A DNA stretch of 64,000 bases from Apostichopus japonicus (taxonomy: Eukaryota; Echinodermata; Holothuroidea; Aspidochirotida; Stichopodidae): assembly GCF_037975245.1 (NCBI RefSeq), contig NC_092563.1, forward strand, positions 13,566,001-13,630,000. Reading direction: 5' to 3'. The first letter of the stretch is position 1, and each line of letters starts with the position of its first letter. The position numbers and the translations under genes were made by a program. Under the pieces are notes generated by a model. The model was not told the DNA's origin, did not search any database, and worked only from the letters and a program-made list of their open reading frames with translations. Positions 9,501 to 57,727 of the stretch are shown here, piece by piece.

Positions 9501-12500
9501 CGATATGGCAAAAACAATCGTGATGCGGATAATACTAATTCCAAAACTAATACTGGACAGAATGACAATTGCCAAGTTGTAGGATTAAAATTCTACATTA
9601 AGAAAAACTTGGGAAACGTTGACTGCATGTCATCGGAAAGAGCAGCTCTTGTAAGAAACGTATGGGATCTCCCCATGAAACAAAGATGGAATCTGCATAA
9701 ACACTGGCTTAATGTTCACAAGGAAAGAATGCAGACTGCATTGCTTCCCCTGCTAGAAGAATATGAGAAACAAGCACAGCTGTTGCATGAGGCGAGAGTC
9801 GAAGAAGATGTAGAGATCATTCAGAGTTTTTCCATTCTTGCCCTAACAACAACTGGTGCATCTAAATATCATCATCTGCTTCAACGGGCACAACCTAGAA
9901 TAGTCGTTGTAGAGGAGGCAGCTGAGGTATTGGAGGCCCACATTGTGACCGCCCTGACTGAAAATTGTGAGCACCCTCATATTAATAGGAGATCACCAGC
10001 AACTTTGTCCAAATCTGACTGTGTACGAACTTGCAAAGCGCTATCACTTGGACATTTCTTTGTTCGAAAGATTAATAAAAAATAACTTTCCTAAACATCA
10101 TTAAATCTGCAACATCGAATGAGACCTGAAATATCTCACTTATTAAAGATTCATGAAGAGTTTTACCCAGACTTACAAGACCACGACTCTGTAAAAGCTT
10201 ACGATCATGTCAGAGGAGTCGAAAAAGATGTGTTTTTCTTGAACCACAACTTTGCAAAAAAGCCGAGCAAGATGATCGTAGTCGTTCCAACTAATTTGAG
10301 GCAGAATTTCTGACTGGACTGTGTGGTTACCTATTGCAGCAAGAGTATAAGCCGGAACAAATAACTATTCTGACCGCATATACAGGGGAGCTCTGAATTT
10401 TTAAGAATTTAATGCCAAAATCAGTTTACCGTGGTGTTACAGTTTATCCAGTTGATAGCTACCAAGGTGAAGAAATTGACATTATTCTTCTTTCCCTCGT
10501 TCGCAGTAATGTCAAAGGTAGCATCGGATTTTTAAAGATAGCTAACCGGGTGTGTGTAGCTTTGTCCAGAGCAAAGATCGGATTATTCTGCGTGAGGAAT
10601 TTTTCCTTACTCTCAGGACAAAACCAAGTTTGGAGGAAAATTACCGATTATCTTTACGTGAAAGGACAGCTTGGGAAGGAACTGATGTTACGATGTAAAA
10701 ATCATCCCACAATCACTACAACAATTCAATTGGCTTAAGATTTTAAGACCGCACCGGAGGGTGTCAGAAGCCATGTGATAAAACTCTTAGTTGCGGACAT
10801 GTATGCCCGTATTTGTGCCATTCTTATGATTCGGAACACTTAAACATTACGTGTGAAAAGAAGTGCATGAAAACCATTTGCGATCTGAATCATAGTCGCA
10901 CAAACTTTGCTGCGAACCATGTGACGAAGTGTGTGAGAAAATGATAAATGAAACACTTAAATGTGGACACAGGAGGCCGACCTATTGCTATAATAGAAGC
11001 TTCACAGAAAGTATGTTAGAATTTGGAAGTACAGAAAATTGCTCACAACGTTGTAATACAATCCTGCAGTGTGGACATATGTGTGAAGGCACATGTGGCA
11101 AGTGTAAACAGGGAAGACTGCATGTTTCGTGTGTTCAACCTTGCGGAAGGACACTCGTTTGCGGGCATGAATGCAAATCAACTTGTACCGAGTATTGCCC
11201 TCCTTGTGTGAAGCAATGCGAAAATAGGTGTAAGCATAGTAAGTGCGTCCGAAAATGCGGCCAATCATGTAAGCCCTGTCAAGAGGTATGCGAATGGAGC
11301 TGCGCACATAGTGAATGTCGCAAACCATGTGGAGAACCCTGCATACGACTTCCCTGTGATGAACCATGTAGAAAGATATTACCTTGTAAACATGAATGTA
11401 TCGAAGTATGCGGAGAGACTTGTCCGAAGTTATGTAGGATATGTAATAAAGATGAGGTGACGGAAGGGCTTCCGGGAATGAAGACAAGGACGATGCCAGG
11501 TAAGTTTGCTTTGTTTGGTTTACAATTCTTCCAGAGTTGGCTACTATTTTTTGTCTTCCTCCCTGCATACAGAGGGTACGTTCCTTTTCATTGGTGCATG
11601 TGTACTGCGGAAGTTCTCTTATGTTCAGTTTGAAGAGTAGTAGTAACACATTTTCTTCTTTTTGTTTTGCAAAACAACAGTTTCCAGCATTTAATCATCC
11701 TCCCTGAATCTGCGGTCCACCGTTCTTGATTCATTGTATAGTAATTACATATAATTGGCCTCTTTATAAACAATATTCATAAATAAAACTTGCAGTAAGG
11801 TCAAACTTAAAACGAAAATTCGTATTGTCGTAATCAGTACTGACATGATGGTGGTTATTCGCTTACAACATGCCCAGTGTCACTCATTTCTCTGTTGCAG
11901 ATTTGTACTATTGGAAGATTGTGGTCATATCATGGAAGTGGGTGCTTTAGACACGTGGATGAAAAAAAACTACCGGTGACAAACTAAACATAAATGTACA
12001 AGTGAGTTCTGTCTAACTTGGTTTTTTCTTCATGTCGACAAAAAAAGGACTATATAATTAGTGGGAGTGGACGTTTTGAATATTTTTGCTCACGCCAAGC
12101 AGCAAGTACTTTACTTTCATAATTATTGACAACACATTTATCCAACTTGAATAATCATGCCTGCTTAAAACACCAAACACATGTAACAACTAAATGTCAT
12201 AGCTCAATCCCATCAATTTAAGCAATGAATATCTACATATGTTTTCTTCACTTTATTATTAGCTTCGTGTTTGTCTAAAATGCAAACACCAATCAGGACG
12301 AACTTGCGTTACGGCAATGTCATTAAGCAAGTACGTGCCGATGTGGAAGAAATAAAGAAACAAATTCTTGGAGATCCTGTTCACATCAGGGAGAAAAGAG
12401 AAGAACTAATTCAAGATCTGTCTCTGGTGGAGGATAAAACAGTGATGACTAATCGTAATCTCTTCAGAGAATTAGTTCTAAGTAATCTCCAGCATGTGTC

Positions 12501-13101
12501 AAAGTGTGCTTTTACGTGTGCTGTTTCGAGAGATTTTGTAAAAAGATTTCGATCGCAACTAAGCAGCTGTTGTACTGAGACTCAAATGATTTCCTTAGGT
12601 TATAAACTGGACATGTTTAAGAAACTTTGCGAACAGAAAAGGAAGATCGAACGAACTGAAGAGCGAAAGGAAATTCTGGAAATGAAACAAGCACTAGAGA
12701 GAATATTTCATGACATTCTAAAGTGGCTTGATCAGTTGTCGTACATTAGTAATCAGAATGCGGAAGACTGGGATAGAGAATCAAAGCGTATATTCTATTG
12801 CATCAAGCTAATGGAAGATCGACTTCGTGTTTCAGTAACTCAAGCACCACAAGTAAGTGACATTCTCAAGAAAATCCATTTGATATTGTTCAGTGGATTT
12901 CGTTTCTCCGACGATAATCAAAAGGTCGTGAAGAATCAATTTCCAGAGCTAATGCACTTTGCTTATACAGCACATACATACCAAATATTGAGAATCGGGA
13001 GCGTACAAACGGGAGAAGGAAGGGTGGGGGACTGGTTAAAGGGGAAATTCTACTGTCGGTCGCAAATTAGGAGCGGAATAATCCTGGTCATACACCCATG
13101 A

Positions 13102-39140: not shown

Positions 39141-40202
39141 TCAGGATTCTTTCTCTTTTGTCCAGGAAATTACATCTATGGACATATCTGATCATTACAT
39201 GGTATCATACGATGTAGTTATAGTTTATTTACTAACATCCCACTTTCTGAAACTGTTGATATTGCAATCGTTGCCATAATGCATAACAATCCAGGCATTG
39301 GTATTGAAAGACGGGATCTCCAGAAACTATTCATGTTTGCTACCTCACAAACGCATTTTTATTCAATGGTAATTACTATGATCAAGTGGACGGTGTGGCA
39401 ATGGGTTCACCATTAGCACCGGTGTTGGCATATCTCTTCATGGTTCTGAGTGCAATAATCGAGACAAATGTTGGGTGATATAAGATCACTCAAAAACTTT
39501 GCCAAATTATAATTATAAGTACCAATACTTGAAACAATAGGACGAAAAGTAGGAAATGAATTGTTATTAGTACATTTGTGAATTTTAGGCAATACTAGAT
39601 TTTACAAGCTCCCGTACATTGGTAATTTCTCTGGTCATGCTCAGAACAAAGTTAGACAGTTGATCAAATCGCATTGTACAGACATTGATGTTAAATTAGT
39701 GTTGATCTCATTTAAAGTTCGCAATATGTGTGTAGTAAAAGACATGATTCCATCATACCTTAAATCTCGTGTGGTCTATAAATTCATCTGCACAAGCTGT
39801 AATGCTTGTTATATAGGGGAAACCCATAGGCACCTTTCTACACGGTTTTCTGAGCATCTAAAAACCGATAAGAATTCACATATTTACAAACACTTAGATA
39901 AATTTCCCAACTGTAAGCGGCTATGTGACAACAACTCATTCAAAATTATCGACTCAGCTCCCACTAAACTCCAGCTTTGGATCAAAGAAAGCCTACATAT
40001 CAATTTGGATAAACCTAATCTCAACAAACAGCTTGACTGTCCAGTGTTATCTTTGTTGAGTTAATCTACTTGTCCTTGTGTGTTATTGCTAGTTTACATT
40101 TGTTTGCTATTTCTTGTTCATTTTGCGTCTGTAACCTGTGATGAAAGTCGCTACTTTCGAAACATGTCGTTCTTTTTGTATTAATTTTGGTAAATAGATG
40201 TA
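39141..40202 (+). mobile_element. Penelope-like retroelement remnant (RT plus GIY-YIG), 5'-truncated and interrupted
   Basis: 39200-39470 translates, with frame changes, to the end of a Penelope-type reverse transcriptase: a degraded YDVV-type motif, IPLSETVDIA-like helix, [20 protein letters not shown] and APVLAYLFM. After a deleted segment, a 134-codon open stretch (39660-40064) contains VYKFICTSC, CYIGETHRHLSTRFSEHL and a histidine-rich end. This is a GIY-YIG endonuclease, the domain that distinguishes canonical Penelope-like elements. The YLDD-type motif region is missing. The 3' tail is split at 40202 by the 17.5-kb DNA transposon and resumes at 57701-57730 before a (TA)n array. Not autonomous. 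Confidence 0.88.
40128..40175 (+). ncRNA. Hammerhead-like ribozyme motif in the Penelope 3' tail
   Basis: TGATGA, then AAAGT-CGCT-ACTTT (stem II) and CGAAACATGTC, match the order of the hammerhead core, a short stem III and a GUC cleavage triplet. Penelope-like elements are known to carry such motifs. The base before TGATGA is G rather than the invariant C (or two bases are inserted), so self-cleavage is doubtful. Confidence 0.45.
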
Positions 40203-40440
40203 CTCTCTTAAATTCTTAGACTGAAATTTCAGTCTAATAGACTGAAATTTCAGTCTAAGAGCGGACGAACTGAGGGACCAGTTCCTTCAGACTGAAATTC
40301 AGTCTAAGGAAGGACTGAAAATTTTCAGTCTGTAAAACGACTGATTTTTAGTCCAGCTAGACTGAATAATTTCAGTGTAACAGGACTGAAAGTTACTCTT
40401 TCTTACACTGAAATTAAGCCAAATTAGATTAGAATCCAGC
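40203..40440. repeat. Left terminal inverted repeat and subterminal palindrome array
   Basis: Two perfect AGACTGAAATTTCAGTCT palindromes stand in tandem at 40217-40258. About eight imperfect GACTGAAA / TTTCAGTC half-sites follow to about 40420. The spacing is irregular, so these look like protein-binding sites rather than a satellite. Confidence 0.85.
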
Positions 40441-41261
40441 CTATAAGGTTTGAATAATTTTATTCAATTAGACTTTAAAGAAAAGTGGCTAGACTGAATA
40501 TCGTCATTTTATACTTTTAATTCAGGGATTAATAATCCAATAGGCAAGTCAAAAGACTACCCAAAAACACTAAATTGGGACGATTTCAGTTCATCATCTT
40601 AGACTCCGCTCTCCAGGCAGATTAAAGGAATATTCCTGTAGAATTGTAAATATTCATATATGGAGTATAATTTTAGACACAAACTGGTTAAAAAGGCAGG
40701 GTGATACCTCTTTTGGTTCAATAGTTACATATTTTTAACTTATATTTTGCTTTAACTATGAAAATAAGAAAACAAAACACCTGTTAAAAGTTTAAAAACT
40801 GTATTACAACTTTATTTATTTTCTTGGATACATTTAAGAAAATTTATAAACAAATAAAAAAAAAGTGCAAAAGGTAAGTTTGTTTGCTTGGGTTTTATTT
40901 ATGATATCTTAGGTTATTAATAATTAGGTTACTAATAAGGGTTATTCAAATTTTAAGTCCAAACATTAAAGTTGCAATTCCGGTGCCGACCATTTGACAC
41001 GCAAACTCTTTAAATGTGGTCAAGTTTACCAGAAATGTATAATTTGACCATAACTTTTTTATTTAGTGTCCTAAAAATCTAAGGCTTGAAACATTCATTG
41101 TTATGTTTTAATTTAGATTCATTCTTTTAAGTGAAACCAATATGTAGCAGTTGTTGCAAATATAATAACAACCCGAACCAATTATGACAGGGCAAGTTCC
41201 CCAATTATACAGATATTGGTACAACGAAATTTAAAATATAAAACCCTAATTGTACTTAAAG

Positions 41262-41430
41262 AACAAATTATGGCAAAGGCCACTTGGAAAGTGACCAACA
41301 ATGAACGGATGCTGGCATAGGCCACTTGGAAAGTGACCGGCAATAGATGAATACTGGCAAACGCCACTTGGAAAGTGACTGGCAATGGACAAATACTGGA
41401 AAAGGCCATTTGGCAAAGTGACTGACAATG
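41262..41430. repeat. 42-bp tandem repeat, four units
   Basis: CCACTTGGAAAGTGAC starts at 41280, 41322, 41364 and (diverged) 41406. Each unit contains a small inverted repeat, CACTTGGAAAGTG. Because 42 is a multiple of three, artificial reading frames run through it on the minus strand. They are not genes. Confidence 0.9.
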
Positions 41431-41553
41431 AATGGATTACAATTGACAGCTTACATATTACAACCAACTTACGTACAGAGAATGCAATTTTCGAAATAAA
41501 AAGTTAAGTATAAAAACAACTGAAATATTTCTCATACATGTTATACTGTAAGG

Positions 41554-41948
41554 CAGGGTTGTCCAACCTTTTGCAGAGGAGGGCCACATGGAATGATTAT
41601 GAAGAAGGAGGGGGCCGCACAAACCCTACGCTCGATATTTTGCCCGAAGCCCAAGGCAGCAAACTGTGAGCACTGCGCGCGGATCGCACTGATTTATTTT
41701 CCTTCCTGATAAAACAGATGAATAAAGTCCAGCCCCCCCCCCCCCCTCCGTTGAGAGAGTGTCACACAAACTGACATGTATGCAGTTTTTTGGACCCAGA
41801 AGGTTCGAATGACTGATTAAATAGCTTCAAATTGTTATCAATAAATTTGCTCACTAAAATTTCGCATCGTAGAGCATCTCTGACGGGCCGGACGCAACCC
41901 TGCGGCGGGCCCGACTGTGGCCCGCGGGCCGTAGGTTGGACAACCCTG
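41554..41948. mobile_element. hAT-type MITE, 395 bp
   Basis: The ends CAGGGTTGTCCAACCT and AGGTTGGACAACCCTG are perfect inverted repeats. The flanking 8-mers CTGTAAGG and TTATAAGG match at six positions, which is a slightly decayed target duplication. Non-coding, with a long C run at 41730. Inserted between the left subterminal array and the last SAM-gene exon. Confidence 0.88.
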
Positions 41949-42347
41949 TTATAAGGTAAATGCATGCATCGCAAGAAGGTAAGAGTTGGAAAGACGTTGA
42001 AGCTTAATGTTGGTCCTTTCCACACCACCCTTCTTCCAAACTCCAACCTCTTGCCAACCCCCACATTTTTTAAACTCCCAACCTTTCCACCTACCCTTCA
42101 GGGTTTTCATTTCTGCTGCTTATTCCCAACCCCATCTCTTCCCAACCCACACCATTCTGACACCCATTTCTCGTAATTGAACCATTTTTGGAAACTGTCC
42201 GACTGGATTACAATTCAGAATTGTACTAAACTAAGTTATAATACTGATAGTACTGGTGCTTACATAAACAAAATAATTGTTTACATGACCCAAAATCAAA
42301 ATAAAATACAGCATACAAATAAACACTTGCAACACCACTCTAAAAAG

Positions 42348-45300
42348 CTACTTAGGAGAAATTAGTTTAATGTTAGATGCCAAGCTACGCAATGGTGCCT
42401 TTACTGATGTAGCAGGAATCACTCCATATAAAAAGGCAGCTAAAAATTCCCAAAATTGAAGAAGTGCCAAAGCATAATGCACATTAAAAGCATAATGTGC
42501 TTTAAATAACCTATCCACAGCCTGTATGAGATTGGTTCCTGCAGGAATTGGAATTCTATCCACCACAATGAAGAACTGCGACGGATTTAGGGCAGGACCG
42601 AGTGAAAGTATGTACGGTTTTACATACTTTTCATCTTTTCCGGCAGTAGTAGCATCAATACTCGTGCCAAGCTAGGAAGAAATGACAAAAAAAATATGTA
42701 TATTTCACTCCATACTATTAAATTCACATCTGAACATTAAGCAAACTGCCAATCAGATTTTTCCATGACACTTCCAGTTTATTCATACTAGAAGAAAATT
42801 TCACACATACTAAACGTCTTACATGATCTCCCTAGAATGTCACTAAAAATTCACAAACCCTGGACAGACAACTTTACAAAATTGGTTATAACAGCCCTAG
42901 ACAGACTGACAGAGTCTACCTTCAGTATCAATAACTGTATATCTCAAACACCTGAAGGGTTCATAAGTCAACCGTTTTCCATCTCTATCTTTGTTATTCC
43001 TTACTAATAATGGCATAAATAATATTGGTTGGCTTTACATTTAAAGCCATTTACACCAGACAAACTTTTTCCATCTTGTTTAGCCCAGTAAATTTTGTAA
43101 AACCATAACTTTTCCATTAAATGCAGGGGTATTTATATGGCTTTGAGCATTTATAAGGGAATATGCAGTATATTGTCATAAAATACTCACAGGTTTGTTC
43201 TGAAGGAAGTACAACAGTGCCCCTGCTCTGCTAGTGGACTGCTGCTTCTGTTTTAACATTGTCACTGACCTGTGCAGTATATATATCAATGTATATAAAG
43301 CACACATATCCTCTGAAAAGAAAATTGAGTTTGAAGTTTTAAACATAACCTCGAAGGCATAGTCTGTGGTTAATTAAATGCAATAAATCATAGTACAAGT
43401 TAATTTGAACAAATGGCACAATTCCATAAATAACCCTTTTAAATAAAATCCTGATAAGTTATACATCCAAATAAATATAAAATTCTGTATTACACAAACT
43501 ACAAAGTAATTGATATATTGATTTTTTAAAGTTATGGTTCATTGCATAATTTGCCCAAATTGAGAATAAGAATAAAATTGAGAACTTTACAGCCTCTTAC
43601 CAAGGGGAAATGCCCAAAACACTTTATATGTGATCACTATTTGATTGGTTAGCTAGAAAAAGGCATACAAAGAAAACTTTGAAATACGATAGCTATACTA
43701 ATTTAACTTACTACTATCAGTTTCCTCAAAAGCATCAATCATATTCGCAATAGCTGGTGAGGTTTTCTTTCCTACTTCTATGACGCGGTCTCTGTATCCA
43801 GCCCACTTTGTAATGAAGTTATCGCTGGATTCCGCAAACATTAATCGAAACTCCTCGTTAATCTGGAAGAAATGTAAATATTTAATTACTGCAAATCAGA
43901 ATGCTAGGAGATTTTTCTAGTATCACAATTATGAAACTTACCACATCAAATCTGAATATTGCTTCTCCAGTTATCTATTGATTGCAGTGGCGTAGGAAGG
44001 TACTTTTGAGTGGGGGGGGGGGGCTGAAGACTGATGGCCGACCTGGGGGAGGGGTCTAAGGGGAGGGGGTTCCCCCTCCCCTTTGGATTTTTTTAGCATT
44101 TCCAGGTGGCCTCAGATGCAATTTGGTGCAATATAGCACACTTCAACACCCACTCCATTTTTACAAAAATTTTGCATTTTCACCTGGCCTTAGATGCAAT
44201 TTGGTGCTCCAAATGAGATTTTTTTTCTCATTTGGAAATGAAAAAGGGGTATTCTGACTTGCGAAGCGGGGGGGGGGGGCGGAATGATACTTCCGCCCCC
44301 CCATATTTTTCACTGGGGGGGCTGGCGCCCCCCAGCCCCCCGGTTCCTACGCCCTTGATTGATTGTATAGAAGATTATAATTATTAGAAATGCTTGATAT
44401 AGCGCAATATACCAAAACCGGTCTCAATGAGCTTTACAATTAAAATTTAATACCAGTATAGTCAGGCGATACAGTCAGGAACCTGGGGGCGCACAACAAC
44501 AACCTTAACCAGGGGACGGACGAGAAAGATGGGGAAATGAATGAAAACTGCCTTTTCACACTTCTCTTCGCGAATAGTGTTCACTGAAAAAATAAACTAG
44601 TCAATATTGCCACGGACTAACGTTAAATTAGTCTTTAACGTTAGTCAATGCACCAGGACTAGCAAAAATCTTCGTTTCATCGCTGCTTCTTAGTTAGTTT
44701 ACACTGACTAAGGAAAATATAATCGCAGCTTAGTCGGTGGCGACGGACTAAGGTATTTTAACCCATGGACTAAGAACGATACGGACACCCGATTTACGCC
44801 ATAATCGTAGCTTAGTCGGTGTCGACAGACTAATGTATTTTAACCCAATTCGATTCACTTCAATTTGGAAACCGAGAGGCAACGGCAGCTTGCTGGGCTT
44901 GGCATAGTTTCATACGATCACTCTAAGCAACTTTCAACCGTAAATCACCCAAGAAGGTCTTTAGAAGAATGGAGGTATTAACTGCATCATCGGCCTACCT
45001 GTTATTCCTTTAACTAGAAGGTAAAATTAAAGTTAATTGTTAGGCCACTGGCACTAGTACTGTATTATGGTTAGTGTAACGCTACCGTTGTCACGTTGGC
45101 GTTTCGCAATACACAAGTGCAATGACAGTGAGTAGCCTATAGGCTTCTACTGGGTACTACAGTGCATTCTCAACACTAAAGTGTGCATTCTAAACACCAA
45201 TTAACAATGTGTTATGTGTGTATTGGGCTAGATTGAACAGTGGCACATAATCTTCTAATTTATTCCCAAACAAATGCTGGAACTATAAGGCTCAATAGTT

Positions 45301-48300
45301 TATTTGAAGTCTACACTCATTTGGTAAAGATTTCCTGTAATTTCCCATGTGAATCTAAATGGGTAGGCTTTGTGATATTGAATAAGCAAGGCTAGACCTT
45401 CAAACGTACAGTCACAGTCGGCTGAACACATGTTGCGACATTCCTTCACGGTCGACTTGCTTACTGTAAGAAGTATTAACCGTTTTTTTTCTCAGGAAAG
45501 CTTGATAGTCTGAAGTTATTATAACATGTGCTTTTAGTATACTGCCAAAAGAGTAAGTTGCTGTATTTGTATTTAGGGGATAAATACGAGGGGAACCGGT
45601 CTTAAATTTGATTTGAGACCGATGATGACGTCATCGAGGAGGCTGAGCGGACCGAGGCGATAGCCGAGGTCCGCTGCCCTTCTCGATGACGTCATCAGAG
45701 GTCTCAAATCAAATTTAAGACCGGGTACCCTCGTTTTTATCCCCATTCATAAATGACCCTCACAAATGTTAGAAAACGGCATTTTTTCGCTAATTTTTGC
45801 TGATCTGTATTTAATTCTCCTAATGCCTCCCTTGATCTTTTTCCAGAATGACGTAATAGTAACCTCATTGTAAAACAGCATTTTCTTCCGACGAACATTA
45901 AGAGTGAAAAAATACAGATGAAGCAGTGTCGTTTGGTCTTAAATTTTTGTATATTAATCAATTCAAACACTAAAAAATGGAGGCAAATGCAAATTAAATA
46001 AGTACAGATGAACAAATTTCTAAAGATAGCATTTTAAAACGTTTTTTTGACCTACCAGGTCAAATTGCGCAATAAACAGATGCTGAGTTGTGTGTGTTCT
46101 GGAAAGTCCGTAAACGCTACAACACAGTTAGGATAGCAACGTTGCTTGTTGCTAACATTCTTTTGAGTAGAACTCGTCTATCCCTGGTCGGTAGATGAAC
46201 CGTTCAAATAAACGTTTACTGGGCCTGAGAATGAGCAGTTTTTGAAGAGGTTCCGAGCTCCATTGTTCGACAGGTGTTCTTGTAGTAACCGCAGTGTTAT
46301 TGCGAGTCTGAAAGATCGCTAGGCCTAGTCCCTGGTCAGTCATGTCGTTACTGCTAGTAGTAGAAGTAGTGCTAACGTTATTGTTAGGCTTAGCAACAAG
46401 GTTTCTACTGTTACTAGTGTCAACATTGGACGCTTTACGCTTCGGTTCTTCGTTGAAGCACCTCGATAAGGGTGCTGACATTGACTCTAGCCCAAAATTA
46501 AGCTCAAAAGTAATCCCTAAGTCATTCATGTTACTCGAAGTATTAAGCTGGATGATTTAAGAAGTACGTACAGTGTGTATTGAGACTCTGTGTGTGTGAA
46601 AACATATACAGTACTACTGCTGTAACTGATTGAAAGTAGGCTATATATACTGTACAGTGTTCTTTGCAATTTGGGAAATTTCTTTGCCCATAAACATATT
46701 TGCATATACTCATGGCATGTCTTCATTTCTTTTAATTATGACTTCATGATTGCCACGGCAACAAACCAGTGTTTGTCTAACATTTCGATCCTGAAGCAAT
46801 TCTCCTCTCTATACACTCGACCAGTCTCGAATCGCATTCGAGACTGGTCCAGTATACAGAAAGTTGGTTTAGGCATTTATGAATGATATTTTATGTAGAA
46901 GTAACGGAAAATTTAGTATGTTTAGTTTGGTCTAATTGCACGTTTTTTTACTGTCCAATGTAGTGCAGGGTTCACTTGCGCGAATTCAAATTATTCTGTT
47001 TATGTGTATGTATATGCATCGATTCTTAGATTTCTTAGATTCTTAGATAATTATGCCCATCAGTTGTATCTGAAGCCCTAACCAACATTTTCCAGTAGGT
47101 TTCAAGTGGTTACCTCATGAGCTGACCTAGGTCAGCCTTGAGGGGTCAAATATAGATCACTGGCAGGGGTACCCCACCACCAATAATTACTGGCAATGGC
47201 CATTTGTTGCTCTTGGGGCCATACCTGACATATTGTACTTACTTTGATGTGTTACCATGACAACTGATCTAGGTTAGCTATCAGGTGACTTTAAAATTGC
47301 TCTCCCAGCCACACCCACCACAGTCGGTTTGCCAGTCGTCTGGTTTCATATACAGGAATGCACTGTGAACATTGTGATGTACAAGGCAATTGGTTACCTT
47401 CCCAGCTAACCAAACCCTCTGGGATCCCGGTCTATTGGGATCATTATTATCATGATTAACATAATTATTAAGTTTTGAGAAATAACTTGGTGTTATGCTG
47501 TGCAAAGCTAATAATAATTTGGTAAAGCTGCTATTCCTGGCTTATAATTTGAGGGACCTAGATTTAAATGTATACCTCCCAATATGTTATAAAATTTTAA
47601 TGTAAATGTATGTTATGATAATGTGAGTTATCATGTGCTATATCTGTATCTGTGCTTACACGTATATCATATTTTCTGTTCACAGGTCAATAATGGTGCA
47701 GATTTTGGCTTCCTGAAGACAAGTGGGAGGCCATTTGTAGTTAAGAGAAACACTCTTTGTTCGTGAAGACTTAACTGGTGTCGATTTGGGGTACCACTTT
47801 AAAAGGAAAGTCATGAGGAACCCTTGCCCAAGATCCAACTTTGCATTATTGTGCAGTGCTATACTTTTGCGATTCATGTTTGATCCATTAACTTGTCTTA
47901 ACTTTGTTGGAAAAAAACTCAGATTTTCAGATTTTATTTACAGTGATTTCTTCTCTATCTGTCGAAAGTCAGCCTTTTGTAGACATCAGAAGTTTTATCA
48001 GAAATAAATACTGCCAACGTACACATTATTTGTGTTTCTTCTTCTCTCTTTTCTTTCAGTGATGCTAGTCAGTGAAACTAGTCGGGTTTAATTCTTTCAG
48101 TGAATCTAGTCGGTGCAACTAGTCAGTCGATACGGACTAAGAAAGGTTAGTCGGGAGAGGCACCATCCTGACTAATGTAAAACCTGCTATAAACTAGTCG
48201 GTGGCTCATATAAATTAGTCGGTAAAGACCGACTAATGTCACCAACTAATGTAACTGACTAATATACATTTACCGACTAAGAAATTGTTGATCGACTAAG

Positions 48301-51300
48301 CTGACGGACTAAGATGACCGACTAAGAAATCCAACTGACTAAGGAATAAATTAGTCGGTATAGCAACTGACCAAGGCTATGTTAGTCGGGAGAGGCACCA
48401 GATGGACTAACGTTATGTTAGTCGGTGAACCAATTTAAGTTTTCAGTGTTCAGAGAACCAGACATGGGTGACTCCCATGCAGGCAGCGAGGTACATCATG
48501 TCATGTAACACTTGCTTTTCCTGTCAATTGTGAAAAATGGACAATGGTTCGTAGGGCTGGCATTTTTGACAAGACATCTAAAAACTGAAACTTACCAAAT
48601 TAGGCATATCCTGAAATCTGGGAAACTTCTGTAAAATTTCCGTAATTGTCTTACTGCCTGATTCCATCCACTGCCTTCTGTAGTGGTGAGTGTCCTTAAA
48701 GAAGTTGAGATGCTTAGATGGATTCTCACTAGGAACTGAGTATTTCATCCAATTAACCTAAACAATCAAATATAATTATAAAATCAGGTTACAATTTGTT
48801 ACACCAGTGGTTGCCCTACTGCAACATCAATCACAGTTGGGCTTCACTACTACATCAATTATGAAGAGTCAATAGTACCACTGCCTCATCAACGGATCAA
48901 TAAGAATTGCTCTCACTGCTCCATCAATCAGACTTGGTCTTACTGCTCCATCAAGCACAGTTGGTCTCATGGAAAACATTTAACAAGGGGGCTTTAATAT
49001 AAACTCAGAACCTGCATTATCATGAAAAATTTATAAATTTACTTCGTTCCCCACTTACCTGTCTCCCCACAACCTATGCACCGCATTCTACCGTGTCTAG
49101 AATGCCCTGGTAATCTTTTAACACTGTACACCCTCACTGGCCCTAATGGCCTCCCTTCATTTTTCTACCCACAAAGTGTCTCACTGTGTTTTTCGGAGTA
49201 AGAAAAATTTATAATTATAATTTTTCATTTTGTCCATAAATATTGGCATTCTTTGGTGCTTATAATTTACTTTTCTCTAATTTACTCCAATTTTCCTAAT
49301 TTCCTAAACTTACCTATTGGCACCTTTCCATTCGGACTATCATGGTGCCGTTAAACTCTGCCGTTAAACTCCGAACAAACAAACATAATTTAAAGGAATT
49401 TGAAATTTGTCTCAGTAATGCCTCGAATTTTTCTTTGTTTCTGCCTTAATGTTAAGTGCTGCCAAACCAATAGATATACCAGTAACTTTATTCATACCAA
49501 TTTTTTTAATACTGATAAACCTAAAACATCAAAAATTCTTTACATGATAAACAATTTGATAAAATATCTACCTTATCCATGATTTCATCCGTCTCTTCAG
49601 CAAGAGAATGACCAGGCCTATCTGGATTAGATGCAGATACAAGACCTTTTCGTTGCCGCATATGGTCAGCTTGCGGTTTAGTTGAGCGGATATTTTTGAG
49701 TCTATACTTTGAGTCTATGGGAATCCCTGCCCATTGCTGTAATAATGCTCCTGTAACAAAATATATTTATATTCTAATATTAGGGATGCACCAGAACCAG
49801 ATTTTTAAGTTCCGGTCGGAACCAGAACTAGCGGAACTGGAACTTTTTACATTTGTTAGTTAGAGTGAAATATGTATGACTGATTTAACTGTAAAATATT
49901 GAGAAACATGTCTAAAACAATATCAGTCATGTCACTATGTGCATTGAAACATGATTTTCAAACCATTTTTCAATATAATTATCCTTAAGTTAGTGCATAC
50001 AGTACACTTGATTAGACACTTTCACTATTGACAGCAAGTTTGTCTCGACTGCAAAGAAGGAACAAATCATACATCACTCTGCGGCCGTTGTCGTAGGCGT
50101 CAACAAAAGGTTAACCTTGACTTTAACCTTGGGTTAGCAAATATGCTAAAAAATAAATAAACAAGCAGCTTGTTATTATTTATACCGATGATGTTGCTAA
50201 GGCCTACCCTTTCATTTAATATTGTCGATGAGTGGGGACGTTTTAAGAGGAATGACGTCGTCTTAAAAGAGAATAATGTTACATAATATTCACATTAGTT
50301 AACTGAAATATTGCTATTTTTAACCTATTTATTACTTTCTTGGTTTTGGTGGTTCCGGCCAGAACCACAAAAAATTCCAGCCAGAGCCAGAAATTTAAAA
50401 AATGGCGAGTTCTACTGCATCCTAATTTTAAGAAGCTTGATAAGCACCTTTCGGCACACTGACAAATTCATGCAGGGTATTTACACTAGTAACTTTGGTA
50501 AAAGATTTATCAGCCAAAACAGTACATAACCATGGCTTTACAAAAATATGCTACGATGCATTTTTGTAATTGCAGTAAAATGAACACACACAGAAAGTAT
50601 ATAAACTTTAATATTGAAAGGCTGTTTATAAATATGCATAACTAGAATTAAGAATTTCCTACTATGGGGTTAGAACAAACTGGATTACGGTCAAATAAAA
50701 TGTTTATAGTACTTACATGCCCTTTCATTCCTGGTGTTGTGTCTTGCAGGGTGGGGAATACCGTCACAATCTCCATGGCAAGAGTGGTTTTTTGGTTAGT
50801 TGTTGGATACCTTTAAATGTGAAATATATTATTGTTGTATTAAACATTTAGTGATGGGAAAACAAATAGACAAAGGTAGTTCAGATTTCGTGTTTACAAG
50901 CTCTATAGCCAAAATCACGTTAAGCCCGCCCACTATGCATTTGAATGAGATTCAACATTTTTACACCATATTTCAATCAGATTGGTTATGTTAAACCAGT
51001 TATGTTAAACCCCGTCCCTTCATTAATATGCATGACATCATGACCAGTTATGTTAAACCCCGCCCCTTCATTAATATGCATGACATCATTACCAAAAAAC
51101 AATAGGGCACATTTTCAAATGGCCTCTCTCTGTATAACAACACATGAACCAGATCTAGAGATATCGTGTTTACAAGCTAGGCATAACATACTTACACATG
51201 AGGGATAGGTTTCTGATGGTGATAGCATCTGAACCAAAAAACTAAACATTTAATATACACAAATGAGATCAACATAAAGCAATGGACTACAACAAAATAC

Positions 51301-54300
51301 GTACAAACCACATTTCTCGACTAGACAACCCACTGCTATGCGCACAAGAATGCGTCGTTGACGGGTGGAAAGAACCTTGTTAGTTTCCAAAACCTGTGCT
51401 ACCTCTTTGCCCTCAGAATGCTTGGTGATGGTCTCTTTGAAACCAAAGTTCTGAAAAAATTATGGTAAACAATTAGAAACTACTGGATCATACACTACTC
51501 AGTGTTTCTCCACTTGCGGCACATGCACCACTTGTGGCACATTGAGGATCCCAAAGTGGCGCAATGAACTTTGTCAAGCAAACAAATAATCGCTTCAGAA
51601 TAAGAAGGAAAAAATGAAGAATAGAAAGTAAACCAGTTAAGTACAAATTTAAGAGCTCAATACACGTAATCTGATCACGTGCCACGCGACCGGTGCGACT
51701 ACAGGACCAAAATGTTTTCTAGATGGGTAATTGCATAAGTATATAGAAGAGGGGTGCAGGGTAAAGTGACTCAACTACTGTAGAGCTGAGAATTAGGCTA
51801 TTTTTCTGGCAAAAGTTGCTGCAGTTACCTGCTAATAAAATAATACATATCTAGCAGTACTTACTGTTATAGTAGCAGAGCTGTAACTGGCATTAAACTT
51901 TGAACACCCTTTTGACATATCACTTCTCTGCTTACATGGGGTTGATGATGAATTTGGAGAAAAGTCTTCTGGGGTCACAAGTGTGTCACTGTCTGATGCA
52001 GTAGAGGAACTCTGTTAACAAAATTGCAATGTTTGGTAAATATAATTTAAAAACAAAATAATATAAATTAAAATACATGTATGCCACAATGCAGAACTAT
52101 ACAACTAAATAGAGGTGATCAAACAGAATGATGAGAATTGTGAATTATGCATTTTCTAAACAACATTTGTTTTAAGTACATTACAGTTTTAGTCTTGAAC
52201 ATACACAAATGAACTTACCAAAGACGATTCAGTGTTATCATCAATACATAGTTGCCTGATGAGAATGTGCAGCTTTCTTCGCACCCCAAAGGAAGTTACT
52301 CCCACTTCACGTAGGTCTGCTTCGACCATGGTCTTCAACACTTCTATGTCAACATCATTATCTAATAAAGTAAGAAAAAAATACTGAAATAAGGTAAAGA
52401 GAGGATAAAAGGAAGAGCTTAAATTAGATTTTCAAGACCACAATTAAAAAGAATGCATAATATGGGGAGAGGGAAATTTCCTGAGAAGAGGTTATTTATA
52501 GAATCACGAAAATGTAAAGCATTCTCTGTAGTCTGCATAAAGAGGACAGATAAGGAAATAATTGACCGACAACATGGAGCTACTGTACATGCACACATAT
52601 GAGGGTACCAAGAAGTACACCTTACACGCTCTGACACTATTAAACATTTACTAAACTGTGTACATGGAATAAAAGCTGCAAAAGATATTACAGAATCAAA
52701 TCCTCTACCTGGCCAAATATCAATTACATTGTTTCCCATTTTTCAGAACTATTAAACCTTGATTCCCAACATTTTGTTATAAATGAATATACAAATAGAC
52801 ATTATTAATGCTTTTAAGTTTTAAGTTTGTTGAACAAGTTAGAAAATGATAGTTCAGGTACTGTTGTTAGCGGACAATATCCAGTTCCGCGAAAAATTAT
52901 TACTTTTATTTTACTTGAAGTGTGTACACGTTTAGTGAATTTACTGTACTCACAGCTCTATTATACAGTACTGTGGGCATTACCTTACCTACAATGATTG
53001 AAGGTGTATCTGGGACACAAATATGATGGCGAAGTGTCTTCATATGAAGTCAACTTCGTTAAGGATGAAAGTCTACAAGGTTCTTCAACGTCACAACAGA
53101 ATATTCTGGATCAAGTGTTTTAATTTCATATGCATGAAAGTGTGAGGAAAAACCATGTGTACAGCACTTAGCAACAACAAAGAATACTGAATTGTGGGTA
53201 GGCTCCTGCACCAAGATATGGCTAATGCAACTGAATTGTGGGATTTCTTGTATCAGTCCTGTTGCTAGAAACAAGTTTGGTTTGTACTGGGTTCCGTACA
53301 GTGTCACTTGGCTTGCAACAAAAATCTCTTCATCTTCAGCCAGTTGCAAGGTTTCTGCAATTACACCACTGCCGTTTAATAATCCTATGGGAGTCATATT
53401 TCCACCCAAACATTCAAAGTCATGTCTGAGGCCATTTCCCGACCATGCTGCACACTGCATAATTTGATGTTTATATGCAATCGATTTGCATATATTTTTA
53501 AAATTGCAGTTGATTGAGGCTACTTTTTTGCTAAAAGCATGTTTCATTTCGTATTTGAGACACTGTAGCGATGTCAAAGGCCCAGAAACTCTAATACATG
53601 TTGGATAATGGACCATATGATGGTGCTTATTGATCATATTTTGATCAGGAAATTTGAGCTTGAACTGACAGTGATGATCGTGAATAAGGTGCTTTAAGTA
53701 AACAGTCTGCTCATTATACACTGACGGAGCAAAAATGACATCCATACACCGTAGCAATAACAAAAGAAGCTCATAATGTTCGTTGTCATGTGGAATTTTA
53801 TCACCAATTAGAAGAGGTAGCATCCTTGTGAAGCACCACATCTGAACAGCTTTTTGACCTAATTTATGGTCAGAGAGATTTCTCAGTCGCTCAGGCAAAA
53901 CTATGGATGGTTTATTTTTCCGGTCGTTAAATGAATAATGAAAGGAACTTAACCGCTGATTGAACTCGTGAACAGTTAAAAATCTGTTGATGCAAATGAA
54001 CTGTCGAAGCAATAACTTGACTTCATACGGGCAAACACCTTCTAACATGTCGTGCATTATGTCAAAGTTAAAGTTAGTGGAACTATGAAAATTACGCAAA
54101 GAATCTAATGGGCAAGCTCGTTTGACACCAGTTGTGTTATCACCATTTCTTGTTTGAGATGCTATTTCTACATCACTATCATGGGAATCCATTGTTCTTT
54201 GCTGAAAATCATCTTCATTAAAATGATGTTGAATACCTTCACGAGTTGCATAGCACAACCTACACAGTTTATTTGCAGAAGGAGACAAAAACCCAAGAAT

Positions 54301-57300
54301 ATCATGTGCTGCCAGTGTGTCTGCACATAGAGAAACTAAACTGCCATGAATAGTACGCATCCTATCACCGATTAAAAGCTGAACACCATCATCACTTTCA
54401 AAAGAATTCATTTCCTTAACAAATGGCCTCAAGATTGGTTCAAAACCATATCGTTTAACGTCTGTGCTATAAGCTGCTGCAAGTAAATAAATACTGTTCA
54501 TTGTGCAATTCATACGTTTTGGTAAATTTTGAATTGAATAATAGAACATTCCAAGTTTATGGACACCAGCTTTACTACCTATTGGATTGGTCACTTCTAC
54601 GTCATCATAGAATATTTGGAAGCGAAGAGCATTCGGGTAATCTCTAAATAATCCATGCTGTTTATATTGTGAGCCATCTTGATAGCCCCTCAATAAACCA
54701 TTGATAGAGCGCTCTTCATTTTCAATGAGATTCATTACTGGTCTTTTGAGAATTAACTTTAGAACTTCAGTGACAGGTATGTACTGGAAAGTATCTGTTA
54801 CTATTTGCTGCCTTACATCACCAGTTTTTCGATCGATAACTTGATCAAAACGTGTTCCCAATGCGTATTGAGCTGGCTCCACCAACATTAAATGTTCAAT
54901 CATATAATTTGATTGTTGCTTAATTGTTTCTATCTCAGTGAATGGATTTTGACATGAGGTGAATTTGGTGAAAAGATCAACCACATCAGCAGCATTGGTA
55001 TCAATTCCATGGTTTTCCATAACCTTACACACATCACGTTTCAAGGACGAAATTGCATATTGAAACATATCATTGGTTCCACTTATTACATTTTGTATTG
55101 ATGTATATGGCAAGGAGGTTGAAGCTCTCAATTTGATGATCATAGAAACAGCAAGTTGTTTCAGTGAATTGGGATCATATACAGGTTCTTGTTCAGCAAC
55201 ATCTGGTTCCAGTATATCAACATCCATATCATAATTTTCTTGACCCTCTTCATACTGCATATCATTTTGATCTACAAGAAGCTCATCATTCAAAACGTGT
55301 TGTTCATGATCTTCAGCATGAGGTGCATGTGTCATTCTAATGTGTCGCAAAAAAGAATTCATTAAGGTAAATGTCTTCAAACAGCCATCTTGGCCACATA
55401 TAAGGATTTGCCCAGAGCCTCCAACTGGATGCAATGCATGCAAATGATATGCCAGCTCTCTAGTACCCCCCAAAATATGTTCTTGGCATAAAACACAAGT
55501 ATATCCCATTCTCGCAGTTGCAGTGAACTTCTTTTACAGTAATTTAGTTAAGTGTTAATAGTCACTAAACACTACGCTGAAAGATACTGAAGTATTTGCT
55601 ATTAAAATCCGAAGAATTCATGTATTTTCTGTACTTGAATGTTATTTGCTGTGTTGTGCATTCCTTAGAATTGTGATGGCATGGTGTGTTCTGAAAAGAG
55701 AGTGTAACATAAATAAAAGAATTCTCATATTCTTGCATTTTGTTTAGCAATCTGTATTGTTAGCATTGCTAGTGTGATAATCACCTATAATAAAGTCTTG
55801 ATTACTGTACATTAAATTTCTGCAAGTACAGAACTGGATAAATATGAATATAACATTACTGTATGCACTGCACAGTACCATCTAGCAAAGAGTATGTGCC
55901 AACTTCAATGTTGACTAGACTATGTTTTGAAATTTTGTACGCACATGTACAGTATATCAAAGAGAAAAACAGGAACATAAAAATTTACAGTACAATACTG
56001 TAGAATTATAATATGTATGCACCTAGAGATAGCGTACTTTGGTAGTTGAAATTCTATTACTTTCTTACTGTTAGTTCATAAAATATACATCTATTTAAGA
56101 TGGGTATGGAAATGTGTTATTATTTTTGTTTGCTACTAATTTGATGTGTTAGGCATTTATTTGAAACATATTCAAAGAAAAAGTTTTTTCCAGTACTTTT
56201 CTTTTAAATCACAATAAAAGAAGTGAAAAATCTAGTATTTCTCCTTTAACTCTTATGTTAAGTGACCTAACCAAGTGACCAAGTAGAAACCGTACTGAGC
56301 CCTATAGCACCAGTGCCTAACGGCCTGGTAAATAGCCACTACCTTTTCACTTAGGCTAAGTAAACTTGTATGCAGCCTGCAGGGTAGGAATAAATTTTCT
56401 TTAAAAAAAATCATTTATTTAGGCTTAACGTTAGGGGCCTAATATTAGGCTAAGCCTATTTTCGTTTTAACCAGCACCCATTAATTTAAAAAAAAATATT
56501 TTGTTTAACCTAAAGTTGGCTCTCTCTGACTAGGCTAGCCTAACTTAGTAAAATTTAGTAAAATTTTACTAGGCCTACACTACTCGTAACCAGTGCCACA
56601 ATAGACGAAGTATGGTCACTTCGAAGTTCGGACACCTAAGCCTTGAAACACCCCAAAACTAAATCTTCTCGTATAAATCACATGAAAATATACTGGACAT
56701 GGTGGGAGAAATATGTTATAATAAGATACACGGCCTAACTTTCTTTCCTGCAAACTGTTTTTACTTTGTATTCCAAGAAGATTCTTCGTTATTGTGGAAC
56801 TGGTATTTCTTTGCTAGAGTATTGTGAAGTTCGGACACCCAACCTACAGTGTTGCGCTGGTGATAAAATTGGTGGCGCAGTTGCTCTTTCAGTAATTATA
56901 ACAGACTTCATAGATCTCCGTCATTTTATTGACAAATATGTAAGTACTTTCTTGCACACGGGTCATTTTGGAGAGAAAATAACTGTAGCTTTATAGTGTT
57001 TGGTGAAATTTGGCTCTTCCTGTAGGATTTCATGGTGAAATCGTGTATTTCTTAGGGTGTCCGAACTTGGCAATACTGACTATACATGTACGACAGTCTG
57101 ACAGTAGTGTAGCCTAGGCCCCAAACTGGGCCATAGTATTTCTATACTAGGCTATAGCCTACTGTACTACAACTGTACTAGGCATAGCCTAGTATAATAT
57201 TTGTTAATATACACTCTCTCTATGACTGAGTATAACTATGAGTATGAATCGATTAAAAACTGCTTTTTAATATTACCTTCGAGCAATGATATAACTTCTT

Positions 57301-57346
57301 CCGCAAATCCTTTACTTGCCAAACACGTTCTCAATGTTTCTGCCAT
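42348..57346 (-). CDS. SAM-domain protein encoded by the transposon, 11 exons, 516 aa
   Basis: Exons in transcript order: 57346-57277, 52361-52219, 52011-51865, 51450-51309, 51228-51198 (smallest and least certain), 50810-50717, 49736-49572, 48757-48596, 43862-43712, 43312-43191, 42671-42348. With this model all phases agree and the stop falls at codon 517. Residues 5-61 form a SAM domain (LASKGFAEEVISLLE, then DLREVGVTSFGVRRKL). The rest is a conserved, mostly helical region with NWMKYSVP, RRQWMESGSKTITEILQKFP, PYILSLGPALNPSQFFIVVD and FWEFLAAFLYGV. I know this pattern from animal proteins annotated as SAMD3-like. SAM domains bind each other or nucleic acid. A role as an accessory DNA-binding or assembly factor for transposition is inference. 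The gene starts 350 bp inside the right terminus and ends about 2.1 kb inside the left one. Intron 1 holds the transposase gene; intron 8 holds a nested element and a MITE. Confidence 0.8.
43985..44357. mobile_element. hAT-type MITE, 373 bp, same family as 13856-14221
   Basis: Begins CAGTGGCGTAGGAA and ends TTCCTACGCCCTTG, flanked by identical 8-mers ATTGATTG at 43977-43984 and 44358-44365. It is nearly identical to the copy at 13.9 kb. It is inserted in intron 8 of the SAM gene, about 120 bp upstream of an acceptor. Confidence 0.93.
45576..45744. repeat. 169-bp foldback element with two CRE-like TGACGTCA sites
   Basis: GGGGATAAATACGAGG at the left is matched by CCTCGTTTTTATCCCC at the right. 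Further in come GGTCTTAAATTTGATTTGAG and its complement, then GATGACGTCATCGAG on both arms, then GCGGACC..GGTCCGC at the centre. Almost the whole length can form one hairpin. It sits inside copy B. Confidence 0.9.
46152..46529 (-). CDS. Hypothetical 125-codon open frame inside copy B (uncertain)
   Basis: An ATG-initiated frame with Ser/Thr/Asn-rich middle (TTSTTSSND) and a basic C-terminus. I recognise no domain. It could be a decayed exon of the element or chance. There are no splice or polyadenylation signals that decide it. Confidence 0.2.
   Translation of the reverse strand: MNDLGITFELNFGLESMSAPLSRCFNEEPKRKASNVDTSNSRNLVAKPNNNVSTTSTTSSNDMTDQGLGLAIFQTRNNTAVTTRTPVEQWSSEPLQKLLILRPSKRLFERFIYRPGIDEFYSKEC
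46819..46849. repeat. Perfect 14-bp hairpin
   Basis: GACCAGTCTCGAAT and its exact complement are separated by CGC, in an AT-rich context inside copy B. Confidence 0.85.
47686..47766 (+). pseudogene. Terminal exon remnant shared with copy A
   Basis: Behind a TTCTGTTCACAG acceptor, 26 codons and a TGA are conserved in frame with 2096-2176 of copy A. They differ by only two amino-acid changes. AATAAA-type signals follow near 48003. The upstream exons of copy A are absent here. Confidence 0.35.
49781..50424. mobile_element. MITE-like element with TAGGGATGCA ends, about 644 bp
   Basis: The left TAGGGATGCACCAGAACC and the right TACTGCATCCTA form short imperfect inverted ends. Internal GGTTCCGGCCAGAACC-type palindromic blocks near each end extend the symmetry. 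It lies in intron 6 of the SAM gene. No target duplication is clear. Confidence 0.55.
50999..51095. repeat. 48-bp tandem duplication
   Basis: TATGTTAAACCCCG at 51001 recurs at 51049, both followed by CCCTTCATTAATATGCATGA. It lies in intron 5 of the SAM gene. Confidence 0.85.
52915..52920 (-). terminator. AATAAA polyadenylation signal of the transposase gene
   Basis: AATAAA on the minus strand, about 140 bp after the transposase stop codon at 53059-53061 and upstream of SAM exon 2. It would allow a separate transposase mRNA. Confidence 0.4.
53059..55509 (-). CDS. Transposase, C2H2 plus DDE-type, 816 aa, intact
   Basis: One uninterrupted frame from an ATG at 55509. Two N-terminal C2H2 fingers (C5/C8/H22/H27 and C38/C43/H56/H61) probably bind DNA. 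An acidic linker (about 65-110) follows. The catalytic-type region contains YDDVEVTNPIGS (301-312), CADTLAAHDILGF (395-407), a CxxC knuckle (C416, C419), FDIMHDMLEGV (482-492), HYPTCI (634-639) and GPLTSLQCLKYEMKH (643-657). The arrangement of Asp, Cys-pair, xDxxHDxLEG and YExKH resembles animal EnSpm/CACTA (Tnp2-like) transposases. D302 or D303, D397 and E654 are candidate catalytic acids by inference, and a KDZ-type assignment cannot be excluded. The gene lies wholly in intron 1 of the SAM gene on the same strand. The intact frame suggests recent activity. Confidence 0.87.
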   Translation of the reverse strand: MGYTCVLCQEHILGGTRELAYHLHALHPVGGSGQILICGQDGCLKTFTLMNSFLRHIRMTHAPHAEDHEQHVLNDELLVDQNDMQYEEGQENYDMDVDILEPDVAEQEPVYDPNSLKQLAVSMIIKLRASTSLPYTSIQNVISGTNDMFQYAISSLKRDVCKVMENHGIDTNAADVVDLFTKFTSCQNPFTEIETIKQQSNYMIEHLMLVEPAQYALGTRFDQVIDRKTGDVRQQIVTDTFQYIPVTEVLKLILKRPVMNLIENEERSINGLLRGYQDGSQYKQHGLFRDYPNALRFQIFYDDVEVTNPIGSKAGVHKLGMFYYSIQNLPKRMNCTMNSIYLLAAAYSTDVKRYGFEPILRPFVKEMNSFESDDGVQLLIGDRMRTIHGSLVSLCADTLAAHDILGFLSPSANKLCRLCYATREGIQHHFNEDDFQQRTMDSHDSDVEIASQTRNGDNTTGVKRACPLDSLRNFHSSTNFNFDIMHDMLEGVCPYEVKLLLRQFICINRFLTVHEFNQRLSSFHYSFNDRKNKPSIVLPERLRNLSDHKLGQKAVQMWCFTRMLPLLIGDKIPHDNEHYELLLLLLRCMDVIFAPSVYNEQTVYLKHLIHDHHCQFKLKFPDQNMINKHHHMVHYPTCIRVSGPLTSLQCLKYEMKHAFSKKVASINCNFKNICKSIAYKHQIMQCAAWSGNGLRHDFECLGGNMTPIGLLNGSGVIAETLQLAEDEEIFVASQVTLYGTQYKPNLFLATGLIQEIPQFSCISHILVQEPTHNSVFFVVAKCCTHGFSSHFHAYEIKTLDPEYSVVTLKNLVDFHP
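56612..57083. mobile_element. Probable MITE with AAGTTCGGACACC inverted ends
   Basis: GAAGTTCGGACACCTAAG at about 56625 is mirrored by CTTAGGGTGTCCGAACTTGG ending near 57069. The next outer bases also pair partly (AGTATGGTC against GTATTG). An extra direct copy of GAAGTTCGGACACCC lies at 56827. It is in intron 1 of the SAM gene upstream of the transposase start. Exact boundaries are uncertain. Confidence 0.5.
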
Positions 57347-57484
57347 TATATTCTCGTGGAAACTTAAAAGCGGCTAGTTTTTAAGAAGCGTATATTCTCT
57401 CGGTTGTTCGTCTAAGATGGACTTTCGATTCAACGTACGCGGGCAAATGTAGATTAGGAACACGTCATTGATTTGGACAGACCG

Positions 57485-57698
57485 GATTGGTTAAACCGTT
57501 CAGTCTTTGCATGGACTGAAATAAAATTGAGCACGTGACAAAATACAATGATGTTATTGGGTATTGCATTCAGTCTATTGCAGGCTGAATTTCGTTCGGA
57601 ACCAATTCCAGTCTTAACGTCTGGAAATCGGTCTTATGGACTGAAATAAATTTCAGTCAAACCTTAGACTGAAATTTCAGTCTAAGAATTTAAGAGAG
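57485..57698. repeat. Right terminal inverted repeat and subterminal palindrome array
   Basis: Mirror of the left array: GACTGAAA and TTTCAGTC half-sites at irregular spacing, ending in the AGACTGAAATTTCAGTCT palindrome and the terminal AAGAATTTAAGAGAG. It lies immediately upstream of the SAM-gene start at 57346, so it probably overlaps the promoter. Confidence 0.85.
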
Positions 57699-57727
57699 TA
57701 TAAGTTAAGTCTGTGGTGTTTTCAAAT

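Follow-up and report, generated by a model that had tools for sequence, protein, structure and literature searches.

Which protein takes the place of TnpA in the animal relatives of CACTA/EnSpm transposons is the question raised by an element at positions 40203-57698 of the window, the 64,000-nucleotide stretch of Apostichopus japonicus DNA analyzed here (C3:13566001-13630000). In maize En/Spm, the intron-1 region of tnpA supplies the large open reading frame (ORF), and the subterminal repeats are recognized by TNPA; plant TnpA-like proteins are reported to have little similarity even among themselves (PMC2613891). For the animal relatives of CACTA, DeMarco et al. 2006 found no conserved counterpart of plant TnpA and considered experimental verification of a TnpA-like role to be warranted (PMC1636069). 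We found that the element in the window is probably an animal CMC/CACTA-EnSpm DNA transposon built like maize En/Spm, with a SAM-domain protein as its TnpA-like partner, for which DNA binding, splicing and a part in transposition are what we infer from the sequence.

The element spans 17.5 kb and carries 35-bp perfect terminal inverted repeats, located by inverted-repeat matching and copy comparison at 40203-40237 (plus strand, the 3' end in gene orientation) and 57664-57698 (minus strand, the 5' end), with TA on either side (40201-40202 and 57699-57700). With the TA included, the perfect inverted repeat is 37 bp long (left arm 40201-40237, right arm ending at 57700), which bears out the perfect inverted repeats claimed for both ends in the original prediction. 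A search of the 671.6-Mb genome revealed two further copies, both read end to end, one at C7:1586015-1602171 (coordinates including TA) and the other on C22, ending at 20833419. Long aligned blocks among the three copies showed 99.2-99.6% identity, and similarity was lost at the identical base in all three (TACTCTC...GAGAGTA), stopping after the TA on the left. The copies in the window, on C7 and on C22 all have TA at either end, as does a deletion derivative on C1. The C22 copy is inserted in a tandem repeat with the unit ...ATCGGTACCGC..., where one extra TA is found with the element present. These comparisons therefore indicate that TA is the target copy in the window family and that the family has moved recently.

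The C7 and C22 copies share the exact ends and contain both genes described below, and the SAM gene lies inside the mobile unit in all three copies, confirming that it belongs to the unit as had been proposed. Neither of the two outcomes that the original prediction named as refuting it, a lack of other copies with these termini or a SAM gene outside the unit, was therefore observed. The derivative on C1 is 5.7 kb long and has kept both ends, the TA flanks, SAM exon 1 (91% identity) and exons 8-10, of which exon 10 is disrupted; no match to exons 2-7 or to the transposase was found within it. Among the best 150 of 725 candidates in the SAM search, 16 matches resemble this derivative by identity (72-76%), one of which was read.

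Both genes are read in one direction on the minus strand. The transposase ORF (53059-55533, stop to stop) is a single exon encoding 816 amino acids from its ATG, and in the gene models it is nested inside intron 1 of the SAM gene, with exon 1 upstream and exons 2-10 downstream. The original prediction had the two genes and did not mention that the transposase separates the first SAM exon from the others. Exon 1 (57277-57346) contains the start codon, the first part of the SAM domain and a phase-1 donor; exon 2 (52219-52361) contains most of the SAM domain, and exon 3 (51865-52011) encodes a serine-rich linker that is weakly conserved. Exons 4 (51305-51450), 5 (50717-50810), 7 (48596-48757), 8 (43712-43862) and 9 (43191-43312) are each placed by the gene model, the sibling copies and a sister subfamily. 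Exon 10 (42348-42671), which includes the stop, is placed by the gene model and the siblings, with a homologous exon in the sister subfamily. Splice phases match throughout the ten-exon model except at exon 6 (49572-49750).

Joining exon 1 to exon 2 rebuilds the SAM domain, which matched Pfam SAM_1 at 1.1e-4 (22.9 bits versus a cut-off of 23) and the SAM domain of ANKS3 in the PDB at E 1.9e-7, or 1.6e-8 with an alignment as query; the best Pfam SAM_1 match, 1.9e-8, was obtained with the SAM protein of a relative. The closest PDB SAM domains include those of ANKS3, Caskin, BICC1 and tankyrase, all of which we take to be self-associating. Nothing convincing besides the SAM domain emerged from the PDB search with the SAM proteins, and no other Pfam family stood out; a capsid-protein match was dropped as two tandem chance matches, each with i-E 0.87. 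A different first exon, "exon A", starting at 53045 just behind the transposase stop, was rejected in favor of 57346-57277 because the SAM match is longer with exon 1 (ANKS3, 34.2 versus 30.3 bits, a modest difference) and other transposases have homologous exons 1 upstream of them. The exon A stretch is the conserved C-terminal tail of the transposase, out of frame in the window copy. Exons 1-10 are thus predicted to form one gene, on the grounds of the rebuilt SAM domain, the exons of the sister subfamily and the exon 1 kept in the C1 derivative.

The window copy itself is not intact. Exon 6 is 179 nt long, compared with 171 nt, in frame, in C22 and C7, so that the frame is lost in the window. 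A rescue of exon 6 through an alternative splice acceptor is possible on paper; the siblings have the longer reading, and the frame was treated as broken. The transposase frame is 816 amino acids in the window versus 841 in C22, a deficit of 25 C-terminal residues, and in most other subfamilies shown the C-terminus is similar to the extra tail of C22 (clearly so in 64, 58 and 35a; not in L013). In C7 the transposase frame ends after 155 amino acids. The description of both genes as uninterrupted and of the element as complete therefore does not hold for the copy in the window, on account of the exon 6 frame and the short transposase.

The transposase contains two N-terminal C2H2 fingers and a DDE core with C2C and H3H motifs. 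We aligned 10 transposases representing different groups, two of them partial, and found D310, D405, C424-x2-C427, H638-x3-H642 and E662 to be invariant. The CMCT clade is characterized by a C(2)C and H(3-4)H signature (PMC12730594 section 16); we read the invariant D, D, C2C, H3H and E as the CMC signature, the putative catalytic residues being assigned by this pattern. Pfam Transposase_21 (PF02992) was matched by 3 of the 10 aligned members, at best with 1.9e-5. The C2H2 fingers are present at the N-terminus of the full-length aligned members and gave weak matches to zinc fingers in the PDB (E 0.01-0.015). At least 55 transposase matches were found in the genome (the best 55 of 412 candidates), many with open frames of about 820-885 amino acids, and several groups occur as near-identical copies. 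Viral contigs scanned with six transposase peptide patterns gave no match.

Selection on the two genes was assessed with Nei-Gojobori counts in three pairs (C22, C14 and C10), excluding codons at gaps or stops. The proportions of synonymous (pS) and nonsynonymous (pN) differences were 0.75-0.86 and 0.29-0.32 for the SAM gene (386-441 codons) and 0.73-0.78 and 0.21-0.26 for the transposase (802-811 codons). Since synonymous sites are at or near saturation, no ratio is given; both genes are clearly under purifying selection.

We examined the arrangement of the two genes in 13 transposase groups of our own grouping. SAM exons lie beside the transposase in 10 of the 13, including groups with 31-35% transposase identity. 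The window group was counted from the sibling comparison and the other nine by tblastn (E 0.05, flanks mostly 1.5 kb); the weakest of these was L015 at 7.6e-4, and the match in the 33 group was obtained with a query from that group itself. In L033, one SAM exon was recognized beside the transposase by eye. No SAM exon was seen in L013/L014 and L034, where the flanks are short, so that these cases carry little weight. The sister subfamily on C14 (the 64 group), whose transposase is 62% identical, shows all ten exons in the same order and, by eye, in frame: exon 1 (56.5% identity) lies upstream of the transposase and exons 2-10 follow it downstream, the match to exon 3 being weak (E 0.053). For the 58 subfamily (C10), tblastn recovered exons 2 and 4-10. 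Exon-1-like sequences, chosen by eye among the scan candidates, lie upstream of the transposase in five of the eight subfamily sequences scanned.

Two sites of nesting were found. The transposase occupies intron 1 in the groups of the window and of 64, and exon 2 is downstream of it also in 58, whereas it lies behind SAM exon 2 in 33, 34, 35b, 31, L030 and L033. SAM exons flank the transposase on both sides in 35b and L030 by tblastn, and in 33 the downstream exons were seen by eye. The transposase ATG is located 13-52 bp past the donor of SAM exon 2 in 31, L033, L030, 35b and 34 (by eye), and the gap from exon 2 to the transposase is ~0.6 kb in 33. Matches to SAM exons were also detected at no fewer than five places within ~0.54 Mb on C9 (22446999-22988641), where there was no transposase match among the best 55 of 412; this cluster is perhaps a locally duplicated or host-adopted SAM gene.

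Both ends of the element carry mirrored arrays of a half-site, as had been claimed. Exact GACTGAA/TTCAGTC occurs 11 times in 40201-40500 and 7 times in 57400-57700 (18 in 601 bp), never in the intervening 16.9 kb and 6 times in the remainder of the window; when the end regions were shuffled 2000 times with dinucleotides preserved, the mean was 0.16 and the maximum 2. The left array (40218-40500) includes two AGACTGAAATTTCAGTCT palindromes among its 11 exact sites, and the right array (57499-57683) includes one 18-bp palindrome among its 7. The window contains 3 occurrences of this palindrome, which the original prediction had also noticed; the genome contains 153, compared with 0 for the reversed control pattern.

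Eight termini were compared (both ends in the window, 64, L001, 33, 35b, 35a and 31), and in seven of them the distance from the end to the start of the first half-site is 13-17 bp. The half-site word differs by subfamily, being GACTGA at both window ends and in 64 and L001, CGGTTC in 33 and GTGTTA in 35a; for the word of 35b, CCAGGA, 3 of 300 shuffles were equally good. The window, 64 and L001-L003 families share the terminus CTCTCTTAAA, and related termini are CACTCTAAAAA (31 and 35b), CACTCTAATAAAGG (33) and CACTGCAAAAA (35a), so that four related groups end in CACTC (33, 35b and 31) or CACTG (35a). The 35a end is fixed from three copies; the 5' termini of 64, 33, 35b and 31 were each placed by eye in one copy, with no second copy fixing the boundary.

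The kinship with CACTA proposed in the original prediction as an analogy goes beyond analogy, because the CMC signature, the Transposase_21 matches (3 of 10, the window member not among them), the CACTC/CACTG termini of relatives and the En/Spm-like nesting agree with it. The 2-bp target-site copy is within the 2 or 3 bp of CACTA/EnSpm elements, and subterminal arrays are present at both ends, as in those elements. The terminus in the window is CTCTC and hence not of the CACTA type. By its transposase, the element appears to be CACTA-like and not a canonical CACTA element.

These observations are consistent with the following mechanism. A promoter near the right end would give rise to one pre-mRNA, from which splicing of exon 1 to exon 2 would produce the SAM protein, and retention of intron 1, or a start inside it, would produce the transposase. 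The SAM protein, acting as an analogue of TnpA, would bind the half-sites at both ends, and self-association of its SAM domain would bridge the two ends into a synaptic complex; it would also regulate the promoter adjoining the right array. The DDE transposase would cut at the ends and insert the element at TA. The layout repeats that of En/Spm, in which TNPA recognizes the subterminal repeats, and the SAM protein would take the TnpA part, with its SAM domain as the surface that joins the ends.

Several results weigh against this interpretation. The window transposase matched no Pfam family up to E 10, and no known DNA-binding domain or fold was recognized in the SAM protein by the Pfam and PDB searches; the two C2H2 fingers of the transposase could bind the arrays instead. 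No array was found at the terminus of subfamily 31, one of the eight compared, and the CTCTC terminus of the window also counts here. In the related L001-L003 family, the two bases beside the single end read are TA, TG and AG, so that TA is no rule in that family. Exons 1 and 3 were not found in the 58 subfamily by tblastn, and exon 1 was not picked out in 58, 32 and 34, three of the eight subfamily sequences scanned. Finally, subfamily 35a (L019, L020 and L029) is not nested: the transposase follows the SAM gene. In all three of its copies, the SAM stop and the transposase start overlap as ATGA (C12:19953830-19953900), which suggests coupled translation in an animal transposon.

The main rival explanation is that the C2H2 fingers of the transposase read the arrays and that the SAM protein serves another role, such as counteracting silencing or bringing in a host factor. 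The occurrence of two fingers in the full-length aligned transposases, with their weak zinc-finger matches, and the lack of a recognizable DNA-binding fold in the SAM protein fit this explanation. The arrays of En/Spm, however, are bound by the second protein (PMC2613891), and the gene layout is the same here; moreover, the constraint on the SAM gene is similar to that on the transposase, and we regard the rival as rather unlikely. The two genes might also have separate promoters, with the nesting accidental and alternative splicing playing no part. That the transposase occupies one exon and has an ATG of its own, and that in 35a it follows the whole SAM gene, would accord with this. Against it, five groups (window, 64, 35b and L030, with 33 partly by eye) have SAM exons flanking the transposase on either side, the transposase ATG lies, by eye, 13-52 bp behind the exon 2 donor in five groups, and the ATGA overlap in 35a points to one mRNA; independent promoters therefore seem unlikely.

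A third possibility is that the SAM gene is a passenger, a host gene captured by one element lineage without a role in transposition. The frequency of SAM domains among animal proteins, ANKS3 as the closest match in the PDB and the loss of most of the SAM gene from the C1 deletion derivative would suit this. However, SAM exons adjoin the transposase in 10 of 13 groups, down to 31-35% transposase identity, the gene is under purifying selection, and the transposase is nested inside it, which makes a passenger very improbable. We therefore favor the SAM protein as the TnpA-like partner. A more far-reaching version of this reading, which we advance tentatively and hold at somewhat less than even likelihood, describes a large, recently active branch of animal CACTA-like elements. 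In this branch, a polymer-forming SAM protein would line the palindromic arrays and join the ends through SAM-SAM contacts, each subfamily would use a particular half-site word, set at a constant distance from the end and read by a protein co-evolving with it, and one transcript would serve both genes by nesting in intron 1, by nesting behind exon 2 or by the ATGA overlap.

Like the plant CACTA elements maize En/Spm, Antirrhinum Tam1 and soybean Tgmt*, the element has its transposase ORF within the intron-1 region of a second gene, two predicted proteins and subterminal repeats (palindromic in Tgmt*); the plant transposases are of the tnp2 type (PMC2613891), to which that of the window is probably related. 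It differs from them in that the second protein has a SAM domain and the terminus in the window is CTCTC instead of CACTA; its target copies are the 2-bp TA, compared with 3 bp for Tgmt* (PMC2613891). Among animal elements, SmTRC1 and the TRC elements are likewise kin to CACTA, with Transposase_21 and 2-bp target copies, and produce alternatively spliced short proteins, a TnpA-like role having been proposed for the second protein; TRC ends may have a common CCC core (PMC1636069). Animal CACTA relatives with spliced second proteins were already known from SmTRC1. Unlike the second proteins of TRC, described as having no detectable relatives in other TRC elements (PMC1636069), the SAM partner occurs in many subfamilies.

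The C(2)C, H(3-4)H signature is shared with ESTA, Plavaka and Lanisha of the CMCT clade, and ESTA also makes TA copies; compared by description, the ESTA families differ in being fungal and in carrying a TET/JBP gene (PMC12730594). The term "SAM domain" has no occurrence in the main text of PMC12730594. Harbinger/PHIS elements resemble the present one in combining a transposase, in the Nuwa families, with a separate DNA-binding protein and in that some of them make 2-bp copies, and differ in transposase class and in the Nuwa second protein, which is Myb/SANT (PMC12730594). A SAM-domain partner of CACTA/EnSpm elements was not described among the matches listed in a literature search, the scope of which left out most subscription journals and Repbase. 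The layout suggests what the missing second protein of animal CACTA-like elements may be. Many subfamilies of one genome share this conserved candidate counterpart of TnpA, which is under selection and physically interleaved with the transposase, so that the question of the TnpA partner can be tested directly. End pairing driven by the SAM domain would represent a new way of building a transpososome, and nesting at two places of the SAM gene together with one tandem arrangement would show how two-gene units reorganize.

Other sequences are inserted in or adjoin the element. A nested element of 3,867 bp (44582-48448) lies in SAM intron 7, with the ends CACTGAAAA...TTTTCAGTG and TT on both sides; its TTAGTC/GACTAA arrays comprise 9 sites in the left 320 bp and 15 in the right 420 bp, with none between. 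The C22 and C7 copies align as well over the stretches that contain its outer parts, and ~1.31 kb inside this nested CACTG element (about 45573-46884) is missing from C22 and C7. A second right end of the nested CACTG element, with 15 half-sites, is located at 2541-2854, outside the 40203-57698 unit. The C22 copy (L035) contains a 1.86-kb insert (approximately C22:20815961-20817822) flanked by the 8-bp direct repeat ACACCTGT. A short tandem repeat with a unit of ~42 bp around CCACTTGGAAAGTGAC was seen by eye inside the element at 41266-41430. In the left flank, a GIY-YIG-like ORF (39582-40064; E 1.5e-4, 22.4 bits versus a Pfam cut-off of 22.6) is perhaps the end of a Penelope-like retroelement; the flanks of the 40203-57698 unit, blasted against the remaining window and the collected loci, gave no match. 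Farther away, at 6713-13101, lies a helicase-type gene of which several exons were recognized (AAA_11, E 7.9e-14); behind them is a cysteine-rich ORF that matched no Pfam family, and the gene is presumably a relative of ZNFX1.

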